Under the pieces are notes generated by a model. It was not told where the DNA came from and did not search any database. It saw only the letters and a program-made list of their open reading frames with translations. A program made the position numbers and the translations under genes. Shown piece after piece: positions 13,518 to 19,752 of a stretch of DNA of 43,670 nt. The stretch's first letter is position 1, and each line of letters begins with the position of its first letter. The DNA lies in assembly GCA_903896745.1 (NCBI GenBank), contig CAITZA010000001.1, positions 1 to 43,670 on the forward strand. The letters are read 5' to 3'. The DNA comes from an uncultured Desulfomonile sp. (GTDB lineage: Bacteria > Desulfobacterota > Desulfomonilia > Desulfomonilales > Desulfomonilaceae).

Positions 13518-16118
13518 TCAGGTTCCGATAGCAGCTTTGACGGCCTGAACCAGTTCAGTCATTTTGCAGGGCTTTTGGAGGAAGCCTTTTATGTGGGGGC
13601 CAATATCCTTTGCCAGCTCGCTTTCAGGATTGTAGCCGCTCAACACCAGAACACTCAAGGAGGGATCGATTTTCAGGAGTTCGTTCAGGCACTCCTTGCC
13701 CGACATCTGGGGCATTATCAGGTCCAGAATGACTAAGGATATTTCATCTTTCCTTTCCCTGAAGATTTTTATTGCGTCCAGTCCGTTTGGGGCCAGAATA
13801 ACCCTGTAACCTGCCGACTCCAGAACTGTCTGTTCCATTTCGGCGACGATAACACTGTCTTCGACGACCATGATGGTTCCGTGACCTTCTGTCTCAATGA
13901 CAGGGTGTACGATTTGTGGGGGCGATGGCGCAGCCGGTATTTCAGGGAGCCAGATTCTGAATTTCGTCCCCTCGCCGGGCTCACTCTCACAGTTGATAAT
14001 GCCACCATGCTGTTGAACAATTCCTCGAACTACGGACAGACCGAGACCGGTTCCCCTGATAGTCCCTCTCTGTTTGGTGCTGAAAAAGGGGTCAAAGATG
14101 TTTTTCAGAACTGCGGTATCCATGCCCCTGCCATTATCTTCGACCGTCATCTTCACGAACGGACCCGGCTTTACTCCCGGATAGGCCCCGCAATTATCAT
14201 CGGTCAATGCCACCCTGCGTGTTGAAATCTTCAGTATTCCCCCCTCCAGGAAGGCCTCTGAAGCATTTATGGCAAGATTCATGACAAGCTGACGTAACTG
14301 GTTTGGGTCTGACTTTATGGTAATGTCCCCGTCAGCCAGACTTAACTCGAGCTGTTCAATGTTTGGGAGTGTGCGAGTGATCAATGACCCGATTTCGCGC
14401 AATTGATGGTTCAGATCCAGAGGTTTTGAAATGACCTGAGCCTGCTGTCCAAACGCGAGTAGTTTTCTTATAAGCTCGGCCCCTTCCATGGACGTTTGCA
14501 CAATAGTACTAAGGCTGGAATACTGCTTGGAGGTCTTTTCAAATCCATCCATAACATTTTCGGTATAGGCCGTTATTATCTGGAGCATGTTGTTGAAATC
14601 ATGAGCGAGGCCACCGACGAGGGTTCCGAGCGCCTGAAGTTTCTGAGACTGGAATAGCTGGGTCTGAAGCGCCTGGTTTTCCTGTTCGGCCAGGACCCGG
14701 CTCGTGACATCACGATTCCCCGCCCTTCTTCCGAGCCACTTTCCCTCATCTCCGTAGACAGCCTGACACACGTGTTCTATCCAACGCTCTTCTCCGGAGC
14801 GTGTTATGATCCTGTATTGAACGGTGTGAGGTGGGCTGTCGTCTATTTTGTCGAAGTGATCATCAACAAGTTCTCGGTCTTCCGGATGTATGATCTGGCC
14901 AATCAGACCAGGGTTCTTGATAAATTCATCCGGAGAGTATCCTGTGATTTTTTCACATGACGGTGAGACGTGAATCAGCCTGCCGTCGGGCGCCACCCAG
15001 ATTTCCCAGTCAAGGTTATGGTTGGCGACAGTCCGGAATTTCTCCTCGCTTTCCCGCAACCGGTCCTGGGTAATTACCATCTGCCGGTAGCTATGCGCAT
15101 TCTCTATTGCCAGTCCAAAAATACCCATGATCTGAAGGGCAAGATTGACATACCGCTGTCTGTCTACCGGGAATGTCAGATCATCAACCACTATTATGCC
15201 TACAGCTGAGTCCCTGCCCTTTATAGGCATGGAAAAACCGTTTTTCGAGAGCGTCCACGAAAAATCATTCCTTTCAGCGGAATTATTATCGATAGCTTCG
15301 GGGTGGTTGAGTTCCAGGAAGGATTTCCACTCCGCCCCCTGCTGTCCATCAAGGGGGAGGTACTGAACCTTGCGGGCCCCGAAAATGGTTTCCATCAAAT
15401 CGATCAATTCCCGAACGACGTCGATTTCATCCATATTGGCGGTCAGGCTGCTGACAACATTCAGGGCCATGGCGTAGCCAGCCTTTTCAGAGTAAGCCGT
15501 TTTCAGGAGGCTTTCTGAATTTCGCCTTTGAGACTCCATGGCGGATTCCATGGCTATCCTGTTGATGAATGACCGAAACAGGTCCATCCCCCAGGGAACA
15601 ACTTCAAAGGGGAGTTGGAGAAAATCGGCAAGCTGGCGGAGCTGATCGTCCGCCAGGTCGCTAATGCCTGTATCGAGGAGAACAATGGAGGAAACGGATT
15701 CGCCAAAAAGGCTCCGGGCCGTTTCTTTATCCAGCCCCATGCCGTCGAGCCATTGGCGCCATCGCAACACCTGCCCGGAGGTCAGGATGCAGCAACCACG
15801 TTTCAGACAAGCTTGCGTAAAAGCCTTGGATGCAAGCATGTCAAAACACTGTTCAAACCGGTGTAAGACCGCTTTGTGGGCTAGGTTCGAAGGTGGGTCA
15901 CCCATTTCGCCAAGACAGCAGCAACCCAGGATGTGGATTCCGGTAAACTCGCCGGGATCGCCGATGATCCCGAGAATGTTATCCCATGTTAGCGGCGGAC
16001 GACCGCAGCTAACAGGGAAACATGCGGCTATGACCTCCTCAAATGCGGGATCTTCCAGAACCGAGCGCAGTTCCGGATTAAAATTCTCGCAAGTGAGAAC
16101 ACACAGCCTATCCTTCAT
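13518..16118 (-). CDS. Hybrid sensor histidine kinase with DUF1638-like N-terminus, GAF-like, PAS, HisKA, HATPase and REC domains
   Basis: 'GGLAHDFNNMLQIITAYTENV', 'DNGRGMD', 'GTGLGLSVVRGIVQQHGG', REC 'LDLIMPQMSGKE'. N-terminus '...GCCILTSGQVLRWRQWLDGMG...SSIVLLDTGISDLADDQLRQLADFLQLPFEVVPWGMDLF' resembles DUF1638. Confidence 0.88.
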   Translation of the reverse strand: MKDRLCVLTCENFNPELRSVLEDPAFEEVIAACFPVSCGRPPLTWDNILGIIGDPGEFTGIHILGCCCLGEMGDPPSNLAHKAVLHRFEQCFDMLASKAFTQACLKRGCCILTSGQVLRWRQWLDGMGLDKETARSLFGESVSSIVLLDTGISDLADDQLRQLADFLQLPFEVVPWGMDLFRSFINRIAMESAMESQRRNSESLLKTAYSEKAGYAMALNVVSSLTANMDEIDVVRELIDLMETIFGARKVQYLPLDGQQGAEWKSFLELNHPEAIDNNSAERNDFSWTLSKNGFSMPIKGRDSAVGIIVVDDLTFPVDRQRYVNLALQIMGIFGLAIENAHSYRQMVITQDRLRESEEKFRTVANHNLDWEIWVAPDGRLIHVSPSCEKITGYSPDEFIKNPGLIGQIIHPEDRELVDDHFDKIDDSPPHTVQYRIITRSGEERWIEHVCQAVYGDEGKWLGRRAGNRDVTSRVLAEQENQALQTQLFQSQKLQALGTLVGGLAHDFNNMLQIITAYTENVMDGFEKTSKQYSSLSTIVQTSMEGAELIRKLLAFGQQAQVISKPLDLNHQLREIGSLITRTLPNIEQLELSLADGDITIKSDPNQLRQLVMNLAINASEAFLEGGILKISTRRVALTDDNCGAYPGVKPGPFVKMTVEDNGRGMDTAVLKNIFDPFFSTKQRGTIRGTGLGLSVVRGIVQQHGGIINCESEPGEGTKFRIWLPEIPAAPSPPQIVHPVIETEGHGTIMVVEDSVIVAEMEQTVLESAGYRVILAPNGLDAIKIFRERKDEISLVILDLIMPQMSGKECLNELLKIDPSLSVLVLSGYNPESELAKDIGPHIKGFLQKPCKMTELVQAVKAAIGT

Positions 16119-17166
16119 AATCCCTGACCCAGGTTAGAGGATATTGTCCCCACTTGAAAACAGCATCGGATATTGCCATCAGGACTTCATCGGGGACCTG
16201 CCATGGAATTTCGCCGAAATTGTCGGCCAGTACGTATCCACCACCAGCGCCCGCGCTTGCAATAGCCTTTTTCACCTCCTGTTCAGCCTGTTCAGCCGAC
16301 CAGTTACGCATCTCTATGTTGTTGAGATTACCAAGGATAGTCACTTTCCCACGACAAGAATCCTTTATCACCCCGAGGTCATCAAGAGAACTTACGCCTA
16401 GACCGGCGGCCCCCGTGCTGAGTATATCCCCAACAATCTGACCACATGCGCCCGCGCCCATGTGCATGACTGTTGGCCCACTGATACGTCCTATGACGCG
16501 TTTGGCTACCTGCAATCCGGTTTCAAGAAACATCTGCCTGCTTGTAATGGTAGTTGATGAAACTGGGTCAAAACAGCAGATGGCCGTTGCGCCTGCCGCC
16601 AGTTGTGCATCCGCCCATGACACACAAAATTCTTCATTGACTTTCATCAACTGCTCAAAGAGTGGGCGTTCCTCATACATCAAACGTATGTATCTGCCAA
16701 AACCCATCTGCATGACAGGGACTGAAAATGGCGATACTACAACCCCTACCACAGGCGCCTCGTCCCCTACCCGCTCTTTCATCAGGGAAATCGTTTTCAG
16801 AATCCTCTGTGCAAGGTTGGAGTTTTCAATCCGCGGGGGAGTCAGACCCGTTATCATGGATGATTTGGTTATAAACGGTTCACCCGCATTGGGAGCGCCA
16901 TCGTCGAAAAAAATCACCTCGCCGCCCCAGGTCTCTATTTCATTGGCCGCAAAATACATCCCAGACATGAAATCATGGCGATACTTCCGGAGAAGCCGCA
17001 TCTGACCCTCAACAACATTCTCCGGTTTAGAGAAATATTCCCTGATAGACAGCCCAAGTTCCTTCGCTCCATGCATGGTCGCTGAAAGCAGGAATGGAAC
17101 GCGATCCGCTTCCTTATGACCCATGGCTGTTAATACACGCTCCGAACATGACATGGATGGTCCCAT
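16108..17166 (-). CDS. Uroporphyrinogen decarboxylase family protein (MtaA/CmuA-like)
   Basis: 'RVLTAMGHKEADRVPFLL', 'MQMGFGRYIRLMYEERPLFEQLM', 'FDPVSSTTITSRQMF', 'VMHMGAGACGQIVGDILSTGAAGLGV'. Confidence 0.85.
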   Translation of the reverse strand: MGPSMSCSERVLTAMGHKEADRVPFLLSATMHGAKELGLSIREYFSKPENVVEGQMRLLRKYRHDFMSGMYFAANEIETWGGEVIFFDDGAPNAGEPFITKSSMITGLTPPRIENSNLAQRILKTISLMKERVGDEAPVVGVVVSPFSVPVMQMGFGRYIRLMYEERPLFEQLMKVNEEFCVSWADAQLAAGATAICCFDPVSSTTITSRQMFLETGLQVAKRVIGRISGPTVMHMGAGACGQIVGDILSTGAAGLGVSSLDDLGVIKDSCRGKVTILGNLNNIEMRNWSAEQAEQEVKKAIASAGAGGGYVLADNFGEIPWQVPDEVLMAISDAVFKWGQYPLTWVRDYEG

Positions 17167-17798
17167 TATGAAGCTCCTCCTTCAATTCCTGCAAAAACTG
17201 ATACGGCGTCAAAAGCCGTGCGCCCCATCGCATAGGCGCCCACTTCCTTCCACAGCGTTTCGTCAAACCTGAATGGAGCTCCACCCACAACGATCTTGAC
17301 ATCTGCATCACGAGCGTCGAATTGCCTCCGCAGATCCTTCACACGAAGGGCCGACGGCAACATAAGCGTTGACACCAACAACACCTCGATTTTATCATCT
17401 ATTGCCCGTTTCACCGTATCATCCACGCCGAGACATCCATAATCGAGGAGACTAAAACCACACGACCTCAGGAATGAATACACTATCGTCTTGCCCAAGA
17501 TATGTCTGTCCTCCAGAACCACTATGGCAATCCTGGGATGAGACCTGACAGGCATCGGGTCTCGCAGAATCATGGCGTCCACAAGCTTTTCACAAATACG
17601 ACCACTCATGTAAACCTGAGCAAGCGACACACTCCCCTCGGCCCAGCCATCCCCGATTTTGTCCAAAACCGGCACTATTATCTGATCAAGAAATTCCGAC
17701 CTGACATTCTCCGCGCCCCATCTGTCAAAAACCTCACGTGCAGCGACTGCGTCAACCGCCAGAAGCGCCTGTTCAAAGTCATTCAGCAATTCATTCAC
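17166..17798 (-). CDS. Corrinoid (B12)-binding protein, MtaC/MtbC-like
   Basis: N-terminal helical cap followed by a B12-binding domain with D-x-H-x-x-G ('EDRHILGKTIV'), 'DYGCLG' and 'KIVVGGAPF'. GTG start at 17798 is preceded by GGAGG; the track start is 17828. Confidence 0.85.
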   Translation of the reverse strand: MNELLNDFEQALLAVDAVAAREVFDRWGAENVRSEFLDQIIVPVLDKIGDGWAEGSVSLAQVYMSGRICEKLVDAMILRDPMPVRSHPRIAIVVLEDRHILGKTIVYSFLRSCGFSLLDYGCLGVDDTVKRAIDDKIEVLLVSTLMLPSALRVKDLRRQFDARDADVKIVVGGAPFRFDETLWKEVGAYAMGRTAFDAVSVFAGIEGGAS

Positions 17799-18485: not shown

Positions 18486-18971
18486 CTAGTAAATATAGGG
18501 TGGATTGCGGGGCTTGCCTATCTTTTCCCAAGTCAGGCCGAGGGTATCCCTAAAAAATGGGCCAAGCCGATCAAAAAGCCTCCTCCAGTGACTCCTTCCC
18601 TGATCCAGACCTTCAAATATTTCAATGACGTGTTCGCGAATATTTGCCAACTCCTGCTTCGGTAGAAAAGACACCGCCCCCAGTTCCAGAGCCCTGTTGA
18701 CACTATCAACAGTGATGCTGTGGGCTGTCAGCATTGCGGCTGGAACACCTTTTTCCCTGCACAGTCCAAGGAGCGCAAACCCGTTTACACCCATTATGTC
18801 CAGTAGCGCCAAATCAAAAGGCTTCTCTGTCAAAAGCCTCTCAGCGTCCTCGTAGCTGTTTGCCGTGACAATTTCAAAGGGGTCGAACTGCTCCTGCAAT
18901 ATGTCAAGAACATCCATCTCATCATCAACAGCGAGAATCTTTCTATTTTTTAGAAGGTCGTTGTTCATCAT
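18486..18971 (-). CDS. Response regulator receiver protein with divergent REC and short C-terminal extension
   Basis: 'KILAVDDEMDVLDILQEQF', 'FDLALLDIMGVNGFALL', 'AAMLTAHSITVDSVNRALELGAVSFLPK'. Confidence 0.85.
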   Translation of the reverse strand: MMNNDLLKNRKILAVDDEMDVLDILQEQFDPFEIVTANSYEDAERLLTEKPFDLALLDIMGVNGFALLGLCREKGVPAAMLTAHSITVDSVNRALELGAVSFLPKQELANIREHVIEIFEGLDQGRSHWRRLFDRLGPFFRDTLGLTWEKIGKPRNPPYIY

Positions 18972-19002: not shown

Positions 19003-19752
19003 TCACGCATTTTCATCACCACAAATATCCAGACCGACTTCCTTCCGATAGGCTTCTTCCATGGCCATCATGATCTCGCCAAATTCCAGGGCGTGAATTC
19101 GCATGGCCTGCGCCGCCTCGACCGGCTTCCCGTTTATAACCGCCTGGACAACCGGACGATGCATACCCGCCGGATGCATGGACAGCGTGTTGGGATTAAC
19201 CTCCTCTATCACCTTGCGGGTAACCCTCATCAGTGACTTCACAAGCGCTTCCAGAAAGCGGTTTCCGCAAATTTCGGCAAGGACCCCATGCGCCATGGTC
19301 TTGGTTTCGATGTCATCAGCCAGCGACTTTACCGGCAGATCTTCGAGTTCAAGGATATGAGCAAGTTTCTTCCTGTATTCATCAGTTATGTTAATGGCCG
19401 CGAGCCGGGCGACTTCGGGTTCTATGAGCGTGCGGACATTGCATAACTCGGGAATCGATATCTTGTCAGCCAGAAACAGATCAAGAAAAGCGTTGGCGAG
19501 ATTTTCGAAAGTGAGCTCAATTATGTAGGCGCCACCACTAGCCCCCTGCCGCGTTTCAACAAAACCCGCGTTTTCCAGAGATCGAAGAGCTTCCCTGACC
19601 GCAACGCGGCTGACCTGGAACTCTTCCATCAACTCCCGTTCGGAGGGCAGCTTGTCACCCGCCCTGAATTCTCCAACGAGTATGGACTGCTTGAGTTGCT
19701 CGGCAACCTCTTCTGAAACTCTGGTCTGTTTGATAGGTCTGAATTTTGGCAT
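19003..19752 (-). CDS. FadR/GntR-family transcriptional regulator (wHTH + FCD)
   Basis: 'VAEQLKQSILVGEFRAGDKLPSERELMEEFQVSRVAVREALRSLENAGFVETRQGASGGAYI'. Confidence 0.93.
   Translation of the reverse strand: MPKFRPIKQTRVSEEVAEQLKQSILVGEFRAGDKLPSERELMEEFQVSRVAVREALRSLENAGFVETRQGASGGAYIIELTFENLANAFLDLFLADKISIPELCNVRTLIEPEVARLAAINITDEYRKKLAHILELEDLPVKSLADDIETKTMAHGVLAEICGNRFLEALVKSLMRVTRKVIEEVNPNTLSMHPAGMHRPVVQAVINGKPVEAAQAMRIHALEFGEIMMAMEEAYRKEVGLDICGDENA

Follow-up and report, generated by a model that had tools for sequence, protein, structure and literature searches.

The window analysed here is a stretch of 43,670 nucleotides from an uncultured Desulfomonile sp. (GenBank assembly GCA_903896745.1, contig CAITZA010000001.1, positions 1 to 43,670), and the system in question is a set of three overlapping minus-strand genes at 13518..17798 that encode, in this order, a corrinoid (B12-binding) protein, a protein of the URO-D superfamily, and a hybrid histidine kinase. 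The corrinoid protein (17166..17798) has 210 amino acids, a GTG start and Pfam matches to PF02607 (6e-10) and PF02310 (1.5e-13). The URO-D protein (16108..17166; 352 amino acids) matches PF01208 at 6e-48, and the kinase (13518..16118; 866 amino acids) shows the domain order DUF1638-GAF-PAS-HisKA-HATPase-REC, assigned by Pfam and, for GAF, by AlphaFold2 and Foldseek. The genes overlap by 1 nucleotide (TAATG) and by 11 nucleotides; the open reading frames, their strand, and both overlaps are as described in an earlier note made from the sequence of this DNA. The source assembly (4.07 Mb, 497 contigs, 94.7% complete) contains one DUF1638 protein (42.8 bits in the genome search) and one URO-D protein, both in the trio operon, together with one RACo_C_ter protein and two proteins bearing the B12-binding_2 cap domain, namely that of the trio and a second on a small contig. 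Neither MttB nor MtaB was matched in this genome, within the limits set by its completeness, and an MT1 of the MttB or MtaB type, by which a catabolic locus would be recognized, occurs neither in the locus nor in the genome. The sole URO-D and the sole DUF1638 protein therefore share one operon without a recognized substrate:corrinoid methyltransferase.

The corrinoid protein combines a helical cap (B12-binding_2) with a Rossmann B12-binding domain, and its nearest entries in the PDB are the methylamine corrinoid proteins 7xcn and 3ezx. The DRHILG stretch pointed out earlier (D97-R-H99-I-L-G102, 17493..17510, minus strand) is the standard base-off/His-on DxHxxG cobalamin motif, and its partners, S143 and G172-G173, are present. 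The cap and the DxHxxG…S…GG set that define methyltransferase-type corrinoid proteins (MtaC/MtbC) are thus complete. Since all 77 near relatives retain DxHxxG, S, and GG without change, the protein should bind a corrinoid in the base-off/His-on form.

MtaA (4ay7) is the closest solved structure to the URO-D protein, and the designation "MtaA/CmuA-like" given to it in the earlier note holds for the fold only; assignment to the true MtaA/CmuA type fails, the TIGR01463 score being 91.9 bits against an NCBIfam cut-off of 235.4. Alignment with 4ay7 reveals that, among the MtaA zinc ligands HxC…C, H235 is retained and both cysteines are replaced. No cysteine is found at these sites in 82 URO-D relatives, which read H-[LFM]-A-S-G and D-N-H-G-E-I-P at the corresponding stretches. 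Uroporphyrinogen decarboxylase, HemE, is likewise rejected (TIGR01464, 50.3 bits against a cut-off of 303), and its catalytic aspartate is missing, the position being occupied by F in the window protein and by Y, F, or H in relatives. Judged by these comparisons, the URO-D protein belongs neither with HemE nor with the canonical MtaA enzymes. Over 82 URO-D sequences, a distinct set of polar residues is nearly invariant (H32, N177, Q188, D200, H235, and D315-N316-H317-G-E319). As a separate observation, no HemE-type URO-D was found in the window genome at about 95% completeness, where the cassette protein is the only URO-D, which suggests that the organism either makes haem by a different pathway or makes none.

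The N-terminus of the kinase had been noted to resemble DUF1638, and the profile score bears this out: PF07796 matches residues 67-184 at 6e-10, with 39.7 bits against a cut-off of 27. The domain as modelled spans residues 1-189 (15552..16118) and adopts a Rossmann-like alpha/beta fold (predicted local distance difference test, pLDDT, of 96). A second input domain escaped the earlier note. It is a GAF domain at about residues 190-345 (15084..15551) that was modelled by AlphaFold2 with a pLDDT of 89, matches the GAF domains of KdpD, DosS, and PDE in Foldseek, and persists in relatives where DUF1638 is lost. A PAS_3 domain (14703..14999; 5.9e-18), the HisKA-HATPase_c core (13941..14630), and a receiver domain (Response_reg, 13536..13874; 1.9e-20) follow. 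HATPase_c is matched at 5e-23 and HisKA at 8.7e-4, the latter below its curated cut-off (19.7 against 26.9 bits), with the H-box LAHDFNN and the N- and G-box motifs NLAINASEA, DNGRGMD, and GTGLGL readable in the translation; the H-box, HATPase_c, and receiver that mark a hybrid histidine kinase are accordingly all present. Within DUF1638, C10, C68, and C91 are at least 90% conserved in alignment A6 and are shared with standalone members of the family. Their location at the ends of predicted strands 1, 3, and 4 suggests that they may form a metal or redox site. The model has no strong solved relative; its top fold match, the PrpR N-terminal sensor domain (2pju), is weak (E 2.7e-3, template modelling score 0.43) and merely suggestive. 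This domain is the sensing part of a regulator, with no sequence relation to DUF1638 shown.

Relatives within the phylum were sought with kinase residues 1-193 as query and with the DUF1638 profile, which matched in 95 of 396 genomes. G126 (L015) carries corrinoid-URO-D-[DUF1638-GAF-PAS-kinase], flanked by a DNA ligase gene and, downstream, by a PGI gene, and a distant relative, G067 (L021), carries corrinoid-URO-D-[DUF1638-GAF-PAS-PAS-HD-GYP]. In G330, which belongs to the family of the window organism, the sensor protein has a PAS domain and no kinase domain. This same-family relative encodes, at L030:5901-7589 (minus strand), DUF1638-GAF-PAS with a C-terminal SHGICPDC motif, which represents either an unrecognized output or a truncation. 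A standalone DUF1638 gene lies between the URO-D and kinase genes in the distant relatives G153 (L043), G027 (L041), G042 (L033), and G363 (L038). The existence of fused and split forms constitutes Rosetta-stone evidence for a joint action of DUF1638 with both the kinase and the corrinoid/URO-D pair.

A scan of 85,462 genomes (one per species) with a three-sequence URO-D alignment yielded 145 loci, the best 80 of which were kept; it employed two strict peptide patterns, so that the count is a lower bound for the URO-D subfamily and the 80 are its most query-like members (L082 and L030 are the same locus). The co-occurrence of the trio, which the earlier note had proposed to survey, was examined over these 80 loci, which fall into 16 phylum-level groups, two archaeal bins among them. 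The gene upstream of URO-D is that of the corrinoid protein in 76 of the 78 loci with enough sequence, the DUF1638/GAF sensor protein follows URO-D in 74 of 76, and DUF1638 itself is evident in 62 of 76. The recurrence of the gene order in most of the 80 loci is more than would be expected by chance. Nearly all loci come from metagenome bins, and single placements may therefore reflect contamination; cultured or isolate-genome carriers include Geomonas sp. Red32, Geomesophilobacter sediminis, Desulfocicer vacuolatum, and Heliophilum fasciatum. The URO-D tree mixes phyla, with 35 label changes (minimum 15, shuffled mean 52.4), and many of its branches are weakly supported; this is compatible with, and no proof of, transfer. 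Geomonas sp. Red32 possesses two tandem cassettes (L095:501-10275), a four-gene form with the kinase apart from DUF1638 and a fused form without a recognized output domain. In L080, L083, L084, L092, and L100 (Nitrospirota, mostly magnetotactic) and in some others, the sensor begins with GAF and DUF1638 was not detected.

What the input proteins are connected to varies. Among 62 third-gene proteins scanned, DUF1638 was found in 50, HATPase_c in 39, HisKA in 33, GGDEF in 12, and a receiver domain in 8; kinase and GGDEF outputs are exchanged, and HD-GYP occurs in the one distant relative. Signalling genes are also found next to the cassettes, with receivers and kinases making up 24 and 19 of 105 downstream flanking genes and 10 each of 98 upstream ones. 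The 25 commonest flanking families, to which the list was confined, include no corrinoid methyltransferase. Profiles built from MttB relatives matched within 8 kb in 2 of the 80 loci (the flanks of L071 and L111), and those built from MtaB and RACo relatives matched in none of the 80 flanks. Genome-wide, MttB is absent from all eight cassette genomes of the phylum, the window genome included, and from 14 of 23 further cassette genomes; MtaB was found in one of the eight (G330). The earlier observation that no MtaB/MttB-type methyltransferase adjoins the trio extends to almost all of the 80 loci, and constant company of such genes, which that note had named as speaking against a signalling role, is not what the loci display. 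RACo_C_ter is present in most cassette genomes searched. Independently of the cassette, MttB is expanded in G416 (the genome of L111) and G399 (that of L114), with 20 and 23 matches, respectively, several of which contain an in-frame TAG, as in pyrrolysine-containing MttB.

DUF1638 is also encountered in corrinoid settings of another kind. At L035, the second locus of G330, it stands immediately before the corrinoid reactivase RACo, itself an ASKHA-type ATPase, and the genes upstream encode corrinoid and URO-D proteins. The DUF1638 of G077 (L027:6740-9676) and that of G161 (L028:6671-9526) form a fusion with an ATPase of the hydantoinase/oxoprolinase (ASKHA) type, and the L027 fusion sits between URO-D and corrinoid protein genes; such a fusion could possibly be an alternative corrinoid reactivase. 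A DUF1638 gene of Phaeobacter shows co-fitness with a split methionine synthase and a RamA-like protein, a link for which no mechanism was proposed (PMC5764234). This standalone protein belongs to the same family and adjoins a corrinoid protein, and mutant fitness ties it functionally to B12 reactivation, whereas the DUF1638 of the window is fused to a kinase. The RACo, ASKHA, and Phaeobacter associations thus identify DUF1638 as a corrinoid-associated domain that is here attached to signalling outputs.

The constant three-part input, the exchange of kinases for cyclic di-GMP enzymes, and the signalling neighbours together indicate that the cassette is best read as a sensor, and it is very probable that the trio is a dedicated signalling module. 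Comparative genomics supports the signalling role well; the methyl chemistry, the ligand, the physical contacts, and the direction of the signal are what we infer beyond it. The suggestion that the corrinoid/URO-D pair feeds a signal to the kinase instead of serving catabolism is likewise supported, at the level of sequence comparison, by the presence of DUF1638, the scarcity of MttB, and the swapped outputs, the last of these being stronger evidence than the earlier note had to draw on. In the mechanism we propose, the URO-D-fold protein would bind a small, probably methylated, compound and exchange a group, most likely methyl, with the cobalt in the corrinoid protein that accompanies it. Because a second methyltransferase that could unload the corrinoid protein is not encoded nearby, the state of that protein would itself be the signal, be it Co(I)/Co(II) versus alkyl-Co(III) or free versus docked protein. 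The DUF1638-GAF N-terminus of the kinase would dock the corrinoid protein or URO-D and turn the corrinoid state into autophosphorylation, followed by phosphotransfer via the receiver domain; relatives would use this input to drive GGDEF (diguanylate cyclase) or HD-GYP outputs. The chances that this full mechanism, including methyl transfer to the corrinoid and its reading by DUF1638-GAF, is correct appear evenly balanced. More tentatively, and with somewhat greater doubt than confidence, the system may represent a new class of signal input in which organometallic methyl transfer from URO-D to corrinoid cobalt is the detection step itself and a DUF1638-GAF adaptor reads it out and delivers the result, in bacteria and some archaea, to kinases, diguanylate cyclases, or HD-GYP proteins.

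Several observations weigh against this reading. In 14 of 76 loci, roughly a fifth, no DUF1638 is seen ahead of GAF, so the domain is not always required. G067, at 99% completeness, yielded no RACo_C_ter match, and reductive reactivation may therefore be missing for its corrinoid protein. The window URO-D has F317 where 81 of 82 relatives have histidine, is also changed at other near-invariant positions (C198, T79, A91), and occupies a long branch of the tree (0.94) as a divergent member; this copy may therefore be altered or degenerating. Methyl transfer by URO-D may also fail to occur because the MtaA zinc cysteines are absent. The same absence, together with that of the HemE catalytic aspartate, favours the main rival, a sensor devoid of chemistry, in which URO-D and the corrinoid protein only bind and would report corrinoid availability or the redox state of cobalt (an oxygen or redox signal) to DUF1638-GAF with no methyl donor involved. 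The three near-invariant DUF1638 cysteines, the link of the domain to corrinoid reactivation (PMC5764234; L035), and the missing reactivase of G067 would fit such a device, whereas the near-invariant polar set of URO-D suggests specific binding or catalysis, and on balance we consider this explanation unlikely.

Light sensing and catabolism are less likely than the other readings. In an ordinary catabolic operon, URO-D would be the substrate:corrinoid methyltransferase, the kinase would merely regulate expression, and a second methyltransferase would be encoded elsewhere. URO-D superfamily proteins do serve as MT1 in CmuA and have been proposed to do so in MecE, and most genomes searched contain RACo_C_ter. 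Among described loci, the mec cassette of anaerobic dichloromethane catabolism in Ca. Formimonas warabiya and Dehalobacterium comes closest; it joins a PocR histidine kinase, a receiver protein, a corrinoid protein, and three URO-D-superfamily proteins (PMC9768040). However, mec also contains several methyltransferases, including MTII, and a transporter; these and the PocR-domain kinase are lacking in the trio cassette, where the sensor bears DUF1638-GAF with swappable outputs. Exchange of the kinase for GGDEF or HD-GYP would be odd in a catabolic regulator, the kinase is fused to DUF1638, and the cassette has signalling genes as flanks and no MTII gene (pterin-binding MTII families were not searched genome-wide). 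Given also that only one URO-D and neither MttB nor MtaB were found in the window genome, a catabolic operon seems improbable. Still less probable is a photoreceptor in which the corrinoid protein senses light by means of adenosylcobalamin, as in CarH and the photocobilins. These, too, employ a cobalamin-binding domain in signalling, the photocobilins also with a diguanylate cyclase output. Weak PDB matches link the corrinoid protein to CarH (5c8a, 8c35) and to a B12 GGDEF protein (8j2y), some hosts are phototrophic (Heliophilum, Chloroflexaceae, Oscillochloris), and W52, the GxxW part of the photoreceptor signature (Wx9EH, or GxxW-EH-GxxH-GxxxP; PMC9304148, PMC11796333), is retained in 77 of 77 proteins. 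The EH half, by contrast, is absent from all 80 aligned corrinoid proteins, nearly all of which have V/I/L-Y there, with an aromatic Y or F at the site. CarH and the photocobilins possess EH and have the B12 domain and the output joined in a single protein, whereas the trio has a separate B12 protein and a near-obligate URO-D partner that light sensing leaves unexplained; moreover, many hosts are groundwater or sediment anaerobes.

Three reading frames near the trio do not appear to belong to it. A possible small selenoprotein of 86 codons with an in-frame TGA (NGKA-TGA-SNF) lies at 13203-12943 on the minus strand. The reading frame and its position 315 nucleotides past the kinase stop are as the earlier note had them; a tie to the trio found no support, since tblastn of the frame against other cassette loci returned nothing convincing. 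The upstream genes for a receiver (18486-18971) and a GntR regulator (19003-19752) were rejected as members as well, with no homologues in other loci at 1e-8.

No description of the cassette was found in open-access full text. Like MtaA, MtbA, and CmuA, it pairs a URO-D-fold protein with a corrinoid protein; it differs from them in the replaced zinc-ligand cysteines, with DNHGEIP in place of PGC in relatives, and in the lack of catabolic partner genes. If the sensor reading is correct, corrinoid methyltransferase machinery would have been turned to sensing across many phyla, and two-component and cyclic di-GMP signalling would gain an input chemistry for which we found no description. DUF1638, the function of which was left open after the genetics of B12 reactivation (PMC5764234), would acquire a specific and testable role. 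Annotations such as URO-D or "methylcobamide methyltransferase" in the genomes of anaerobes may then mark sensors and not methylotrophy.

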